From Piscinibacter sp. (lineage in GTDB: Bacteria > Pseudomonadota > Gammaproteobacteria > Burkholderiales > Burkholderiaceae_C): DNA of 64,000 nt. Position numbers and translations under genes: made by a program. Below the pieces are notes generated by a model. It had not been told where the DNA came from. It searched no databases and saw only the letters and a program-made list of their open reading frames with translations. This document shows, piece by piece, positions 55,573-64,000 of this stretch. The DNA lies in NCBI GenBank assembly GCA_017983795.1, contig JAGOAS010000001.1, positions 62,001 through 126,000 of the forward strand. The letters are read 5' to 3'. How positions within the stretch are numbered: position 1 is the stretch's first letter; each line of letters starts with the position of its first letter.

Positions 55573-55576
<4 letters not shown>
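55088..55576 (-). CDS. cupin-domain protein
   Basis: This is a 162-residue small cupin. Motif 1 is [21 protein letters not shown] (metal-binding His, His, Glu) and motif 2 is [30 protein letters not shown] precedes motif 2. Such proteins bind a metal and a small ligand; I cannot assign a reaction. It is translationally coupled to ureG (ATGA), so it is co-expressed with urease maturation genes, though it is not a known urease factor. Confidence 0.85.
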
Positions 55577-56229
<653 letters not shown>

Positions 56230-56255: not shown

Positions 56256-56972
56256 TCAGGAACGGAACAGGCGCGAGTACTGCGTCTCGTGCTGCGCGGA
56301 GAGGATGGCCAGCATCGGTGCGAAGGCCTGGCGGGATTCGTCGTCCATCGTGAGAGCGTGCTCCACCGTGGGCGGAATCGCCTCGACCAGCGCGGCGAGG
56401 ATGCGCTGGCCGGCGCTCTGGCCGAGCGGCACGGCCTTCAGCGCCGCCTGCACCATGTTCTCGGCCCAGCCGAAGGCGAAGGCGAGCAAGGCTTCGCGCG
56501 GCGGTGCATCGCTCTGCGCCGCGGCGAGCGCGAAGGCCAGCGGCCAGCTCGGCGCCGGCGCCAGTGCGGCGAGGGTGGCGAGGCGCGCGTCGTCGCGCGT
56601 GCCGCGGTTCTTCAGCCACTCGAGCATGGAGCGGCCCATCTGCTCGGCCTGCGCACGCAGCTCGCGCGATTCACGCGTGGCCAGCACCCAGTCGTTGAGC
56701 GCGCGCACGCGCGCCGCGTCGCCGTTGCGCCAGGCCGCGATCGCCTGCGCCAGCAGCGGCAGCTCGCTGCGGCCGAGCGCGAGCTGCAGCTGCTCGCCCA
56801 GCCAGCGCGCGGCCTCGGCTTCGTTGCCGACGCGGCCGCTGTCCACCGCCGCTTCCAGTGCTTCGGAGTAGCTGAAGCCGCCCACCGGCAGCGCCGGCGA
56901 GGCCAGCCACATCAGCTGCAGCAGCGCGGCGGGCGAGGCCTCAGTGCCCGTGGTGATCGTGACCGTGGCCAT
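56256..56972 (-). CDS. ureF: urease accessory protein UreF
   Basis: This 238-residue helical protein works with UreG and UreD in urease activation. It shows [26 protein letters not shown], the UreF hallmark, then [27 protein letters not shown] and [25 protein letters not shown] (two segments). The only sensible start is the ATG at 56972, which overlaps the His-rich 3' end of ureE by 32 bases in another frame, giving a Thr/Val/Ile-rich start ([14 protein letters not shown]). Confidence 0.92.
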
Positions 56973-57540
56973 GCGAGTGCGTGTGGCCGTGACCATGCGC
57001 GTGGTCATGGTCGTGATCGTGATCGTGACGGCAGCCCGGCCCGTGCACATGGCCCTTCGTCGCCGTCGCTGCTGCCGCCGCCGGCACCGTCGCGTAGGCA
57101 CCCGACTCCGGCTCGAAGGGCGCATCGACCGCGTTCACGATCAGGTGCATCTGGTCGAGCATCCCGGCCAGCACGTGGTCGGGTTCGAGCTGCAGGTGAT
57201 CGGGCCGCAGCTCCAGCGGCACATGGCGGTTGCCGAGGTGATAGGCGGCGCGCAGCAGATCGAAGGGCGTGCCGTGCTGCGGGCAGTGCGTGACGCGCAG
57301 CACCGGCTGCGGCGCGGCCAGCACGCGCACCAGCGAGCCGTCCTCGGCCACCAGCACGTCGCCGCCGCGCAGCACCGTGCCGCGCGGCAGGAACACGCCG
57401 AGCGCGCGGCCCTGCGAGTCGGTGGCGTCGAAGCGGCTCTTCTGCCGCACGTCCCAGTCGAGTTCGACCGTGGGCGCGCGCTTGAGCAGCACGCCGGCGA
57501 GGCCGCGGCCAGCGGGGATGAGCTTGTTGAGGGTCAGCAT
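56941..57540 (-). CDS. ureE: urease accessory nickel chaperone UreE
   Basis: This is a 199-residue protein. The N-terminal domain ([37 protein letters not shown]) and the metal-binding domain ([20 protein letters not shown] with HxH, then [13 protein letters not shown]) are canonical. The C-terminus is a strong His/Asp/Gly tail (from about residue 164, about 17 His in the last 36 residues) for nickel storage. It reads divergently from the porin gene, so it cannot be co-transcribed with urease structural genes placed upstream at this locus. Confidence 0.95.
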
Positions 57541-57744
57541 GACGGCATTGTGACGCCGGCCGCGCTGTGGCGGGCGCGGAACGCCCCGGTGCACCTTCCG
57601 GGGGAGGCATGCGAAGCCCGCCCCCGCGAATCGCGCCGCCGGCCTCGCCCGCGCCGCGCGCTCTTCCTAGGCTCGCACCTGTCCTCGCTCTCATGCATGG
57701 GACGCGTTCCTCTCCCCAGTCCAACCATCCTCCGAAGGAAGAGC

Positions 57745-58779
57745 ATGAAGAAGATCGTCATCCTGGCAGCGCTGGCTGCCGCCGCGGGCGCGGCCTCCGC
57801 CCAATCTTCCGTCACGCTGTTCGGCGTGGTCGATGCCGCCGTGCGCCAGGTGAAGAACGGCGACACCTCGCTGAGCTCGCTGGCCAGCGGCGGCATCAAC
57901 AGCAGCCGACTCGGCGTGCGCGGCGTCGAGGATCTCGGCGACGGCCTGGCCGCCGGCTTCTGGCTGGAGCACGGCTTGAACGTCGACACCGGCTCGCAGA
58001 CCGATGCCGCGCGCTTCTGGAACCGCCGCGCCACCGTGAGCCTGACGAGCAGCAGCCTGGGCGAAGTGCGCCTCGGCCGCGACTTCACGCCCACCTACAC
58101 CGGCTATGCCGACTACGACCCGTTCGGCGACAACGGCGTCGGCGCGTCGAGCAAGTTCGATTCCTCGCTGGGCACCGCGCGCGACACCGGCACGCGTGCC
58201 GACAACCAGGTCACCTACCTGACCCCGGGCAACCTGGGCGGCCTGTACGCACGCCTGTCGGTGGCCGCCGGCGAAGGCACGGTGGGCAAGAAGTACATCG
58301 GCGGCCGCCTCGGCTACGCCGCGGGCCCGCTGGACGTGTCGGCCGCCTACGCGCAGACCGACGTCGCGGCCGTGGCCGGCGAGGACAAGTTCAAGACCAC
58401 CGACCTCGGCGCCGCCTACGACTTCGGCATCGCCAAGGCGCTCTTCTACTATCGCCAGTCGAAGATCGCCAACAACAAGCTGGGTGTCTACGGCCTCGGC
58501 GCGCTGGTGCCGGTCGGCGCGGCGGGCCAGCTGCGCCTCGGCTACACGCACGCCAACGCCTCGGGCACGAACGCGGCCGGCGCGAGCGTCGACGCGAACG
58601 ATGCCAACCAGTTCGCGCTCGGCTACGTGCACAACCTGTCCAAGCGCACCGCGCTGTACGGCACGGCGGCCTACGTGAAGAACAAGGGCGCCGCGACCTT
58701 CGCGGTCGCGACCACGCCGGCCTTGGTGGCCGGACAGAAGTCCACCGGCTACGAACTGGGCCTGCGCCACAGCTTCTGA
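57745..58779 (+). CDS. outer-membrane porin, neisserial/burkholderial type
   Basis: This 344-residue trimeric general porin (Porin_4 type) has signal peptide MKKIVILAALAAAAGAASAQ, then SSVTLFGVVDAAVRQVKNG, the characteristic first strands, GGINSSRLGVRGVEDLGDGL, and the pore loop region VRLGRDFTPTYTGYADYDPFG. It ends in the aromatic C-terminus YELGLRHSF needed for Bam-dependent assembly. A start 17 codons upstream is rejected because it disrupts the signal peptide. A purine-rich AAGGAAGAG site precedes the ATG. Confidence 0.95.
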   Translation: MKKIVILAALAAAAGAASAQSSVTLFGVVDAAVRQVKNGDTSLSSLASGGINSSRLGVRGVEDLGDGLAAGFWLEHGLNVDTGSQTDAARFWNRRATVSLTSSSLGEVRLGRDFTPTYTGYADYDPFGDNGVGASSKFDSSLGTARDTGTRADNQVTYLTPGNLGGLYARLSVAAGEGTVGKKYIGGRLGYAAGPLDVSAAYAQTDVAAVAGEDKFKTTDLGAAYDFGIAKALFYYRQSKIANNKLGVYGLGALVPVGAAGQLRLGYTHANASGTNAAGASVDANDANQFALGYVHNLSKRTALYGTAAYVKNKGAATFAVATTPALVAGQKSTGYELGLRHSF

Positions 58780-58793
58780 TCGCCGAAGCGATG

Positions 58794-58821
58794 GGCCGGA
58801 TTACAGATTCGTAATCCGGCC
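58794..58821. promoter_or_regulatory. 11-bp-arm palindrome, probable operator of the Sel1/two-component operon
   Basis: GGCCGGATTAC and GTAATCCGGCC are perfect complements around a 6-base centre AGATTC. The inner ATTAC-N6-GTAAT resembles boxes bound by CusR/CopR-type response regulators, and such a regulator is encoded two genes downstream. It lies 15 bases past the porin stop and 40 bases before the Sel1 gene ATG. A porin terminator is the alternative, but no T-run follows. Confidence 0.6.
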
Positions 58822-58861
58822 GCAATCCGCTTGTCGCGGCCGGGCGCCTATCGTGCCCGGC

Positions 58862-60412
58862 ATGCGACGACAAGACATCCAGTTGCTGGCGCTGGCGCGC
58901 CAGGGCGACTCGGCGGCTCGCTGTGAAGCGGGCCGCCGCTACCTGCTCGGCGTGGACGGTTTCCCCCAGCACACCGCCAGCGGGCTCGATCACCTGAACC
59001 GCGTCGACGCGGCCCTGCGGGCGCAGGCGGCGCGCATCATCGCCGAGAGCCTCGCGCTCGAAGAGCTGGTGGCGCTGCAGCAGGAAGACGCGCTGGCGCG
59101 CGCGGCGGCCGACGGCAGCGCCGCGGCGCAGGTCAAGCTCGGCGCGTGGCTCGTTCTGCGCCGCGGCCGCGTCGAAGAAGGCGTGCGCTGGGTCGACCGC
59201 GCCGCCGCGGCCGGGCACGAGGCCGCGCGGCAGGCCGTGGCGGCGCTGCGCCGGCCCGACGCCGAGGAGCCGATGGCCGCCTTCCTGCAGGTGCTGGCCG
59301 AAGCCGGCGTGCTCGATGCGACGCCGCTCGCGCTGCTGGCCGCGCGCCAGGCGCGCGCCGAGGGCGACCTGCGGCAGCTCGCCGCGAGCCTGCGCATCGT
59401 GCTCGCGCTGCGTGCGCCGGTGGAGGCGGAGATCGCCGAACTGCTGGCCGCCGCGGTGCAGATGGCCGAGGCCCGGGGCCGGCCGCTGCTGGGCCTGCCG
59501 GTCGAGGCCATCGAACTCGCGCTCGAGCTGCGCAGCCATCGCGGCGACCGCGATGCCGCGCATGCGCTCGGGCGTGCGCTGTGCGGCATCGCCTGCGGCG
59601 TGCTCGCGCCCGAGGCGCTGGCGGGCGGGCAGAACATGCGCAAGGGCGTGGCGCTGCTGCTGCGCGCCGCCGATGCCGGCTGCGACGCCGCCTGGATGCA
59701 GCTGTACCGCGTGCACGGCGACCATCGCCTCTCGGTGGCCAACCCGCAGATGGCGCGCTTCTGCCTGGAGAAATCGGCGCTGGCCGGCGACACCGAGGCC
59801 CAGCGCAAGCTCGGCGCGCTGATGCTGCGCGCCGCCACCACGCTGGCCGACACCGAAGCGGCCATCACCTGGCTGCACCAGGCCGCCGCCAAGGATGACG
59901 CGCACGCGCTGGCGCTGCTGCACTCGCTGGTGCTGCCGCTCCCGGGCGACGACGCCGCGGCAGAAGCCGCCATCGAGCGCGTGCGCGAGGACGACCCCTG
60001 GGTGGCGCTGCGCATGGCGCTGGCGCGCCACTACGGGCTCACCAAGCTCGAAGCGCTGTGCGTCGATCCGGCCGACGGCCTGCGGCCCTGGGGCCTGGTG
60101 GTCGGCCGCAATCCGTTCATCTCGCAGATCCGGCTCTCGGCCGCGCGCGCCATCCCTGCGCTCGACGAGGCCGCGCTCGACGCGCTGCGGCGTGCCGCCG
60201 CCTTCTACGCCCACGCGCAGCGCGAGGCGCCGCTCTTCGAAGGCGACCTGCGCCGCCGCACGCGGCGCCTGCGGCGTGCCTTCGAGCGCCACGGCGTGGC
60301 CGAGGCGATGTTCTTCGCGCAGGCCAGCGCGACCACGCTGGAAGCGCTGCGCCTGGGCTCGAAGTGGGCCTTCCGCGCACGCGAGCCGCTGCAGTCGGCG
60401 CTGGCCGATTGA
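58862..60412 (+). CDS. Sel1-like repeat (tetratricopeptide-type) protein
   Basis: This 516-residue, Ala-rich all-helical protein has no signal peptide or membrane segment. Sel1-type repeats are visible at about 77-115 ([35 protein letters not shown]) and 255-350 ([62 protein letters not shown]). Such repeats mediate protein contacts. It leads a three-gene operon with a response regulator (13 bp) and a kinase (7 bp). ATG at 58862 was preferred over an in-frame GTG 3 codons earlier. Function unknown; a role in signalling is inferred from context. Confidence 0.75.
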
Positions 60413-60425
60413 GCGGCTGCCGCGC

Positions 60426-61100
60426 ATGCGCATCCTCATCGTCGAAGATGAACCCAAGACCGCGGCCTACGTGCGCCGCGGCCTGACCGAGCAGTCCTAC
60501 GCCGTCGACGTGGCGCACGACGGCATCGAGGGCCTGCACCTGGCCACCAGCGGCGACTACGACCTGGTGCTGCTCGACGTCATGCTGCCCGGCGCCGACG
60601 GCTGGAGCGTGCTGCGCGCGCTGCGCCGCGAGCGCCAGACGCCGGTGCTGTTCCTGAGCGCGCGCGACGCGGTGAGCGACCGCGTCAAGGGCCTGGAGCT
60701 CGGCGCCGACGACTACCTCGTCAAGCCCTTCGCCTTCTCCGAGCTGCTGGCGCGCATCCGCACGCTGCTGCGGCGCGGCAGCGCGCAGGTGCCGCAGCGC
60801 GTGGTGGTGGCCGATCTCGAGGTCGACCTGCTGCGCCGGCGCGTCACGCGCGGCGGCGAGCGCATCGACCTGACGGCGCGCGAGTACGCGCTGCTCGACT
60901 ACTTCGTCCACCACCTCGGCGAGGTGGTGTCGCGCACGCTGATCGCCGAGCACGTGTGGGACATGAATTTCGACAGCGACACCAACGTCGTCGAGGTGGC
61001 GGTGCGCCGGCTGCGCGCCAAGATCGACGACGCGCATGCCGTCAAGCTGATCCACACCCTGCGCGGCGTCGGCTACGTGTTCGAGGCGCGCGTCGAGTGA
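60426..61100 (+). CDS. OmpR/CusR-type DNA-binding response regulator
   Basis: This 224-residue regulator has receiver acidic residues in [17 protein letters not shown], the phospho-acceptor Asp in [15 protein letters not shown] (residue about 51), Thr/Ser in PVLFLSARD and Lys in [17 protein letters not shown]. The winged-helix C-terminus shows [41 protein letters not shown] and [14 protein letters not shown]. The last motifs are typical of the heavy-metal (CusR/IrlR) subgroup. The palindrome at 58794 is its likely binding site. The kinase gene follows at 7 bp. Confidence 0.93.
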
Positions 61101-61107
61101 CGACGAC

Positions 61108-62622
61108 GTGAAGCGCGACTGGATGCGCGCCCTGCGGCGCTCGCTGACGGCGCAGATCAGCCTGGCCATCGCCGGCGTGGCCATCGTGCTCGTGGCCGGC
61201 AGCGGCGTGGCGGTGAGCCTGCTGGCGGCGCGCGAGCTGCGCGAGGGCGCCGAGATGGTGATGATCGCCAACCTCGCGCTGCTGCGCGACGACCTGGAGC
61301 AGGCGCACTTCGACCTCGGCCGCGAGCCGCTGCGCCTGGTGCGGCGCGTCGGCCTGCAGCTCGGCATCCTGCACCTGGCCTTGCTCGACGAGGAGCGCCG
61401 CGTCATCGCCGCCTCCGAGCACTTCGAGCTGCCCCTGGCCGCGCTGCCGGCGCGGCCCGTCGAGGTCGACGCGCTGCCGGCGGGCATCAACGACGAGGAC
61501 GTGCAGCAGCTCACGAGCGCGCTCGGGCCGCTGACCCGCGCGTGGACGGCGCCCGACGGCCGCCACCTGCGCCTGCTGTTCGCGCGCATCCCGGTGCCGG
61601 CCGGTTCGCTCGCCGGCCCCGGCACGCGCGCCGTGCTCGCGGTGTTCGCGCTCGACCAGACCAAGACGCGCCAGATCGTGCACAACGAGCTGAAGGTGTT
61701 CGCCATCACGCTGCTGGTCGGCGCGATCGCCTCGGCGCTGCTGGGCGTGCTGATCGCGCGGCGCATCGTCGCCGCGCCGCGGGCCCTGGCCGCGGCGGCC
61801 GGGCAGATCAGCGCGCGGCCGCCCAAGGAGAGGCTGTCGATCGCGGCCACGCCCACCGAGCTGATCGAATCGACGCAGGCCTTCAACCGCATGCTCGACC
61901 GGCTCGAGGCCGCCTTCGAGCGCCTGTCGGCCTTCTCCTCCGACCTGGCGCACGACCTGCGCACGCCGATCAACAACCTGCTCGGCGAGGCGCAGGTGGC
62001 GCTGTCGCGGCCGCGCAGCGCCGACGAGTACCGCGCCGTGCTCGAATCGGCCGTCGAGGAGTACGAACGCCTGTCGCGGCTGATCGAGGCGATGCTGTTC
62101 CTGGCGCGCGCCGACGATCCGCAGGCGGCGATCGAGCGGCGCTGGGTCGAGCTGTCGCGCCTGCTCGAATGCAGTTGCGGCTACTTCGAGATGCTCGCCG
62201 AGGAGAAGGGCGTCGCGCTGCAGGTCTCGCAGCAGGGGCCGGAGCCGGCGCGCCAGCAGGTGTGGGCCGACGGCGCGCTGTTCGTGCGCGCGCTCGGCAA
62301 CCTGATCAGCAATGCGCTGCGCTACGCACCGCGCGGCAGCACGGTGATGGTGTCGACGCAGCGCCTCGAAGCCGACGGCAGCGTGCTGCTCGAAGTGTCC
62401 AACGAAGGCCCGGCGATCGCGCCCGAGCACCACGAGCAGCTCTTCGAGCGCAGCTTCCGCGTCGACGGCTCACGCGCCGGTTCGGCCCTCAACTCCGGGC
62501 TGGGGCTGGCGATCGTCAAGTCCATCATGGACTTGCACGGTGGGCGCGTGGGTGTGCGCAGCGCGCCGGGGGAGCGCACCGTATTCAGCCTGTACTACCC
62601 GGGCGCTCAGAACAGGAAGTAG
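61108..62622 (+). CDS. sensor histidine kinase, CusS-like
   Basis: This 504-residue membrane kinase has two transmembrane helices (about 15-38, [20 protein letters not shown]; about 195-215, [20 protein letters not shown]) around a periplasmic sensor domain of about 155 residues, then HAMP. The H box is [20 protein letters not shown], the N box [16 protein letters not shown], and the G boxes run through [21 protein letters not shown]. It starts at a GTG. The metal-sensing His/Met pattern of true CusS is not obvious in the sensor. Its last codons overlap the ureC relic on the other strand. Confidence 0.93.
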
Positions 62623-62684
62623 CGCTGCGCCATCGGCAGCACGCTCGCCGGCTCGCAGCTGAGCAATCGGCCGTCGGCGCGCAC
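62607..62684 (-). pseudogene. ureC: relic of the 3' end of ureC (urease alpha subunit)
   Basis: Twenty-five codons plus a stop on the minus strand read [13 protein letters not shown] followed by [12 protein letters not shown], which is the near-invariant C-terminus of bacterial UreC. Upstream of the Val codon (beyond 62684) the frame becomes Arg/Ala-rich and unrelated to urease. The point of loss coincides with the place where the plus-strand LuxR-type gene begins abruptly. It is therefore a fragment left by a deletion or rearrangement, on the same strand as ureE, ureF and ureG. Confidence 0.8.
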
Positions 62685-62725
62685 CCCTCGCCGAGCCGCT
62701 GCTCGACTGGCTGCAGGCCCAGGCC

Positions 62726-63115
62726 GTGGGGCATGCCACCGGCGGCGCGGTGCAGCCGCTCACGCTGGCGCGCCATGGCCGGCGCCTCGTCGTCAAGCTG
62801 CACGAGGCCAGCGCGGCCAGCGGCGGCGAAAGCGGCGGCGAGGACGAATGGCTGCTGGTGATGAGCGAGTCGTCCGACGAATCGATCATCGAAGCGCTCG
62901 GTCTGGCCTTCAAGCTCACCGCGCGCGAAGCCGAAGTGCTCTATTGGGTGGTGCAGGGCAAGACCAACCGCGACATCGGCGAGATCCTCGGCACCAGCCC
63001 GCGCACGGTGCACAAGCACCTGGAGCATGTCTTCGGCAAGCTCGGCGTGGAGACGCGCACCGCGGCCGCCGGCCTGGCCGTGAGGCGCGTCAAGCAGCTC
63101 GTCGCCGGGCGCTGA
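62726..63115 (+). CDS. LuxR-type HTH regulator fragment, 5' end missing
   Basis: The 129-residue frame from GTG 62726 carries a complete GerE/LuxR helix-turn-helix ([40 protein letters not shown]). Homology-like sequence extends upstream without a start ([13 protein letters not shown], from about 62684) to the ureC junction. A normal response regulator of this type would have a receiver domain first, which is absent. It may be a pseudogene, or a stand-alone HTH protein if the GTG is used. No ribosome site is evident. Confidence 0.65.
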
Positions 63116-63121
63116 ATCGGC

Positions 63122-63148
63122 TCAAGTTCCGGCCGCTGCGGCCGATCA
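63122..63148 (+). promoter_or_regulatory. sigma-28 (FliA) promoter of the aerotaxis receptor gene
   Basis: TCAAGTTC, 11 bases, GCCGATCA. Compared with the consensus TAAAGTTT-N11-GCCGATAA it matches 6 of 8 and 7 of 8 positions with exact spacing. It lies 56 bases before the aer-like ATG, so the receptor is probably co-regulated with flagella and chemotaxis genes. Confidence 0.8.
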
Positions 63149-63204
63149 CACGGCGTCACCAACTCTCATCCGCGGTGGAAGTGCTGTGCCGCGTCCATGT
63201 CCCC

Positions 63205-64000
63205 ATGCGAAACAATCAGCCAGTGACCCAGCGCGAGCGTGAATTTCCTGACGGATTGACGCTTGTCTCCACCACCGATCCTCAAGGCCGCATCACCCAT
63301 TGCAATGCCGCCTTCGTGCAGGTGAGCGGCTATTCGTACGAGGAGTTGCTCGGCCAGCCGCACAACCTGGTGCGCCACCCGGACATGCCGCCGGAGGCGT
63401 TCAAGGACTTGTGGTCCACCATCGGCCACGGCCGACCCTGGTCGGGCGTGGTGAAGAACCGCTGCAAGAACGGTGACCACTACTGGGTGTTTGCCGACGT
63501 CACGCCGGTGATGGAGAACGGCAAGCCGGTCGGCTACATGTCGGTGCGCCTGAAGCCGACGCGCGAGCAGATTCAGGATGCCGAAGCGCTCTATGCCCGC
63601 GTGCGCGCCGAGCGCGACAGCGCGCGCAAGACCATCCGCCTGCACGCCGGCGGCGTGCGCCGGGTGGGCTGGATCGACTGGCCCTTCATGGTGTACCGCC
63701 TCACGCTCAGCCAGCGTTTCGCCATCGCGCTGGCGATGCTGTTCGCCATCGTCACCCTGCCGGGTTGGGCGGGCTGGCTCGGCCGGCCGCTCGGCTGGCT
63801 GGAGGCCGGGCTGCTGGCCGGCGGGCTGACCTGGTTCTCCACCTGGTTCCACTTCTCGGTGGCGCGGCGGCTCGACGAGTGCACCGAGATCGCCGGGCAG
63901 ATCGCCGGCTGCAACCTGAGCGGGCGCATGGATTACGAACCGCGCCACCCGCTGGGCAAACTGGTGCGCAACATCTGGCTGGCCAGCCTGAACATGCAGG
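63205..64000 (+). CDS. aer: Aer-type aerotaxis/redox receptor, 3' end beyond window
   Basis: The first 265 codons are present. The PAS domain starts at once: TLVSTTDPQGRITHCNAAFVQ, GYSYEELLGQPHNLVRHPDMP, FKDLWSTIGHGRPWSGVVKN and YWVFADVTPVMENGKPVGYMS (FAD-type, as in Aer). A hydrophobic hairpin follows at about 175-215 (FAIALAMLFAIVTLPGWAGW, LEAGLLAGGLTWFSTWF), then the beginning of a HAMP-like segment. The methyl-accepting signalling domain should lie outside the window. Transcription is expected from the FliA promoter just upstream. Confidence 0.9.
   Translation, partial: MRNNQPVTQREREFPDGLTLVSTTDPQGRITHCNAAFVQVSGYSYEELLGQPHNLVRHPDMPPEAFKDLWSTIGHGRPWSGVVKNRCKNGDHYWVFADVTPVMENGKPVGYMSVRLKPTREQIQDAEALYARVRAERDSARKTIRLHAGGVRRVGWIDWPFMVYRLTLSQRFAIALAMLFAIVTLPGWAGWLGRPLGWLEAGLLAGGLTWFSTWFHFSVARRLDECTEIAGQIAGCNLSGRMDYEPRHPLGKLVRNIWLASLNMQ

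Follow-up and report, generated by a model that had tools for sequence, protein, structure and literature searches.

Among the closest described systems to the locus reported here are partial urease gene sets in other bacteria. A survey of cyanobacteria reports incomplete urease sets in 13 of these organisms, and ten strains are listed as retaining urtABCDE together with an incomplete ure set (PMC6737895). In these cyanobacteria, the accessory genes are absent more often than ureABC, and the available passages of the survey do not describe a scar (PMC6737895). The same source mentions another species in which urease is inactive through disruption of ureD (PMC6737895). Partial ureC genes are also reported from Nitrospirales, where, according to the available part of the account, the partial gene is an additional copy in a genome that also has a complete one (PMC12342949).

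The DNA analyzed here (the window, 64,000 nucleotides) covers bases 62,001-126,000 of contig C45 in a Piscinibacter-group assembly of 4.24 Mb in 45 contigs (99.73% complete), and was compared with seven congeners (G001-G007). Unlike the cyanobacterial cases, the structural genes are gone while ureEFG stay. As in the Nitrospirales, ureC is partial, but here it is the sole copy found. In Piscinibacter aquaticus KACC 15278 (G005, VOPW01000001.1) and other congeners, a ureC tail is likewise followed by a response regulator, the urt genes, and ureD, in the same order and on the same strand. Compared with G005, the genome of the window lacks most of ureC, ureB, ureA, a hybrid kinase, a receiver, and most of ureD, and the ureEFG genes of G005 lie a few kb further from ureC than those of the window. 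From the assembly of this one strain, the only one in which the scar is known, the region can be read with high confidence as the product of a single deletion of about 6.6-7 kb and a separate second deletion of most of ureD, in a urease-negative lineage with accessory and transport leftovers. This double gene-loss scar is a fresh case of a kind already known, ordinary yet unusually legible. A literature search, in which papers were judged mostly by title, start of abstract, and passages, found no account of urease loss in Piscinibacter.

The ureC stump and the deletion junction

The 3' stump of ureC, the gene for the urease alpha subunit, occupies positions 62,607-62,684 of the minus strand and consists of the last 25 codons and the stop (26 codons). 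The first-pass annotation had recognized a UreC C-terminus here from the sequence, and this is borne out by blastn, in which 76-84 bases align at 84-90% identity to the 3' ends of ureC in six congeners, with E from 1.6e-17 to 3e-25, and by the translation, which agrees with the UreC C-terminus of relatives. It had also placed the end of urease similarity at 62,684, and the match does stop at 62,684/62,685.

Beyond this point, the plus strand was described as encoding a helix-turn-helix regulator without its N-terminal half from about 62,684. The description holds, with a start at about 62,687, and the gene can be specified as a two-component response regulator of the REC-GerE type without its receiver (62,687-63,115, plus strand). 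From about 62,687 to 63,116, the DNA is 84.7-87.2% identical to the 3' part of a longer LuxR-type gene in five congeners. The full-length counterpart in G001 encodes a response regulator of 319 amino acids, with the receiver at residues 11-122 and GerE at 254-308. The fragment retains about 142 homologous codons, and its earliest in-frame start, the GTG at 62,726, opens a reading frame of 129 amino acids. With respect to the two domains of NarL/FixJ-type regulators, this frame contains the GerE helix-turn-helix (PF00196, E 3e-17) and has no Pfam match to a receiver.

The junction itself was placed at 62,685-62,690 from flank listings and alignments against the congeners. On the ureC side, the flank in G003-G007 (that of G006 left out) is GCACCTCG, with G003 and G007 shown as GCGCACCTCG; the regulator-side flank in G001 is CACCACCTCGGCGAGG, and the junction in the window is GCGCACCCCTCGCCGAG. 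The flanks have a short sequence in common in the relatives, which is CTCG across those aligned and reaches 7 nt (CACCTCG) in a single pairing. The two ends were probably joined by illegitimate recombination at a short common sequence, a mechanism with which these 4-7 nt are compatible but which they are too short to prove. Among the matches listed outside the genome of the window in the sample of family genomes, none extends over the ureC tail as well as the regulator; the one that comes closest among those listed, in G001, begins 16 bases short of where the ureC tail ends.

The lost block and a second scar at ureD

Two truncated genes meeting at one point had been attributed to a single deletion, and a comparison with close relatives was proposed to see if a urease block separates them there. 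In five of the seven congeners (G001, G003, G004, G005, and G006), the two pieces do belong to separate longer genes, found on a single contig at a distance of 6.6-7.0 kb and with order and strand as in the window. Between the pieces, these five genomes carry the remainder of ureC, ureB, and ureA on the ureC strand, a hybrid histidine kinase gene on the opposite strand, and the 5' part of the regulator gene. In G007, ureC, ureB, ureA, and the kinase run to the end of a contig and the regulator is near the start of another; in G002 (84% complete), the regulator is at a contig end and UreA and UreB were not found. In a sample of 120 family genomes, which takes in the genome of the window and G001, at least 34 carry the two pieces on the same strand of a single contig. 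At least 32 of these, G001 among them, have a spacing of 6.5-9.2 kb, and the other listed spacings are one of 3.9 kb and one of 14.5 kb. In certain other family genomes, the pieces are on separate contigs or far apart.

The first-pass annotation supposed that the lost block had held ureDAB, most of ureC, and the 5' part of the regulator gene. The alignments agree for ureA, ureB, most of ureC, and the regulator, and the comparison with G001 adds a whole hybrid histidine kinase gene; ureD did not belong to the block. Nor did the urea transport genes, which had been suggested as possible further contents, as urtABCDE persists downstream, 5.7-13.5 kb past the junction. The deletion, of about 6.6-7 kb, would have comprised the whole of ureA and ureB and the bulk of ureC, together with the divergent gene for the hybrid histidine kinase and the receiver-encoding half of the neighboring response regulator gene, thereby fusing the ureC tail to the DNA-binding half of the regulator.

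In the five congeners whose ureA and ureD share a contig, the two genes are 14.6-34.0 kb apart, and this distance of 15-34 kb rules out a place for ureD within the first lost block. On contig C45, only the 5' part of ureD matches, outside the window at 139,146 to about 139,308, as a frameshifted stump of about 54 codons some 14.5 kb from the first scar. Given the distance from ureA in relatives and the presence of its own frameshifted stump here, ureD was lost in a separate deletion, a second event that would have removed most of the gene. Adjoining the ureD stump is a segment of 0.97 kb (C45:138,176-139,146; L005:18,176-19,146) whose encoded protein resembles cytochrome oxidase subunit III. 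This segment has no blastn match at 1e-6 in 99 other loci, and the ureD stump, used as a control, matches three loci. A short palindrome is found near the border of the segment and the stump.

On the other side of the ureC stump, 5 kb separate it from ureE. This interval is occupied on the plus strand by genes for a porin, a label that rests on the sequence of the gene and not on a family search; a Sel1-repeat protein assigned by family match (58,853-60,412), which is found between ureE and ureC in G007 and G206 too; an OmpR-type response regulator (60,426-61,100; Response_reg and Trans_reg_C); and an adjoining histidine kinase (61,108-62,622; HisKA and HATPase_c), whose last codons and stop lie on the antisense strand of the ureC stump (62,600-62,622). 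The 5 kb are not part of the scar. G206, a member of another genus, has a full-length ureC match; between this and ureE come matches to porin, Sel1, regulator, and kinase, ordered as in the window, and an additional 4.7 kb sets the kinase apart from ureC. The porin match is weak in this comparison, as the query was partly in the wrong frame. This shared arrangement indicates that the block is most likely older than the deletion, and on this ground the regulator-kinase pair was rejected as a fresh insertion at the scar. An insertion of these two-component genes that caused the loss of urease would agree with G007, in which ureC is intact, porin and Sel1 are kept (DNA match), and Sel1 is directly beside ureC with the pair not there. 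However, given the block of G206, loss of the pair in G007 is the simpler explanation, and in the window the ureC stump stands between the block and the deletion junction, so that this account has only the barest chance of being correct. In G001, the space from ureE to ureC holds a reading frame of 363 amino acids (L001:9218-10309, minus strand) that matches no Pfam or NCBIfam family, and G003 has a relative, 90% identical, in the same place.

Absence of urease from the assembly and its rarity in the family

Searches of the whole assembly of the window at E 0.001 gave no match to PF00449 (UreC), PF00699, or PF00547. UreD (PF01774) is likewise unmatched in the whole assembly and is matched in all seven congeners. 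Among the eight genus genomes searched, UreB and UreA were found in six and UreD in seven. The genome-wide search for intact ureA, ureB, ureC, and ureD that the first-pass annotation had proposed therefore recovered none, in keeping with its suggestion of a urease-negative strain, and both ureABC and UreD, as components of a functional urease cluster, are absent from the assembly. Eight amidohydrolase matches (PF01979) are present in the genome of the window, the best at 1.9e-56, and four of the five relatives searched have one at 3e-79 to 2e-81. With the structural genes absent from its assembly, the strain should not make urease, and a urease-negative phenotype is most likely, as predicted from gene content. 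The best match to allophanate hydrolase (TIGR02713) in the genome has 197 bits, below the NCBIfam cut-off of 511, which is exceeded in five of the eight genus genomes. In G003, a second group of urease matches (G003:C2:27439-34464), with UreF, an amidohydrolase match, and partial UreB and UreA in pieces, is present besides the main cluster.

The scar is known from a single genome, and an assembler that skipped a urease block truly present in the chromosome would leave the same trace. However, ureABC match none of the contigs, and ureD, located elsewhere in relatives, is likewise lost with its own frameshifted stump; two skips, both in urease genes, are improbable. As UreA, UreB, UreC, and UreD are unmatched in the whole assembly, misassembly has very little chance of being the explanation. 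The junction lies in the interior of a contig of 460 kb.

Of the 299 family genomes sampled, UreF is matched in 241 and PF00449 in 237. UreF occurs without UreC in ten of the 299, which comprise five with a very weak UreF match (E above 1e-5), four that are 58-81% complete, and the genome of the window. With the sample restricted to a completeness of 90% or more and a contamination of 5% or less, UreF is matched in 220 of 267, or in 215 after subtraction of the five weak cases. UreC is matched in 214 of these 215, and the sole exception is the genome of the window. An orphan UreF is thus rare among the family genomes sampled.

The surviving accessory, transport, and regulatory genes

The survival of ureG, ureF, and ureE on the minus strand, noted in the first reading of the sequence, was confirmed by Pfam at 55.6-57.6 kb, and all three genes are open. 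These orphan accessory genes are ureG (55,573-56,229, taken from an internal ATG, MSTLHH...; cobW/UreG domain; 92-95% identical in four congeners), ureF (56,256-56,900, the conserved part, with the true start upstream; UreF E 2e-41), and ureE (56,941-57,594; UreE_N and UreE_C), whose dN/dS resembles that of the urease-bearing sister G007. UrtA, UrtB, UrtC, UrtD, and UrtE each score above the NCBIfam cut-off at 130.4-138.2 kb of C45, and all of their genes are open. Outside the window, a gene matching UvrD/PcrA-like helicases lies between urtB and urtC on the minus strand (C45:133,502-135,514; L005:13,502-15,514). This gene is shared with G007 in a continuous DNA match, and in G001 and G005 urtB and urtC are nearly adjacent.

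Pairwise dN/dS of the three accessory genes in the lineage of the window broadly resembles that of G007. Relative to G005, and given for the lineage of the window and then for G007, it is 0.045 vs. 0.090 for ureG and 0.195 vs. 0.212 for ureE, but 0.354 vs. 0.209 for ureF. Amino acid changes specific to each lineage number 1, 3, and 2 in ureG, ureF, and ureE of the window, and 6, 2, and 6 in G007. The three genes together show no excess of such changes (6 vs. 14 in G007; Fisher p 0.29 vs. control genes), and relaxed selection on ureEFG is not seen in dN/dS or in the change counts. For urtC and urtD, omega is 0.21-0.27 in both the lineage of the window and its sister. Excluded from the selection test were SppA and the porin (wrong frame, seven stops each), urtA in G007 (false match), and, for want of an outgroup, sel1 in the lineage counts; for urtB, the G007 sequence covered 185 codons only. 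Also left out was urtE, as the range taken for it was set about 100 residues too far upstream, at which setting its values were 0.54 vs. 0.30 relative to G005 and 0.26 vs. 0.27 relative to G001.

The unrelaxed state of ureEFG fits recent loss and, judged from substitution patterns, would also fit ongoing use. Ongoing use would mean that the deletion is real and the orphans functional, with urtABCDE importing a different small amide, or urea destined for a different route, UreEFG serving another nickel enzyme, and the headless regulator acting as a constitutive DNA-binding protein. Consistent with such use, all of the genes are open, urtC and urtD evolve much as in the sister, ureEFG are not relaxed overall, the helix-turn-helix region of the regulator is mostly unaltered, and the cyanobacterial survey suggests, in the passages available, other nutrients as substrates of UrtABCDE (PMC6737895). 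However, a recent loss yields the same pattern, and ureF has the higher dN/dS in the lineage of the window. The regulator fragment argues in the same direction, as the starts near its beginning are GTG only, no consensus promoter was found in 57,500-63,300 (a weak test in GC-rich DNA), and it has glycine at a site that is glutamate in each of the seven congeners. Its lineage-specific changes (6 vs. 2 in G007 over 121 sites; p 0.13) are not significant, and relaxed selection on the fragment is suggestive only. Functional orphans are therefore unlikely. Very unlikely is the further proposal that the deletion redirected the pathway to another substrate, with UrtABCDE and UreEFG under selection in a cell without urease or allophanate hydrolase and driven by the regulator that the deletion freed. 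The well-preserved ureEFG genes suggest a recent loss, and under this preferred reading they and urtABCDE most likely persist as remnants yet to decay, and the headless regulator would most likely be a dying fragment.

The locus offers a clean natural instance of piecewise urease loss, in which two deletions have left stumps of known length and the accessory and transport genes remain. If annotated alone, ureE, ureF, ureG, or the urt genes would wrongly imply that the strain degrades urea.
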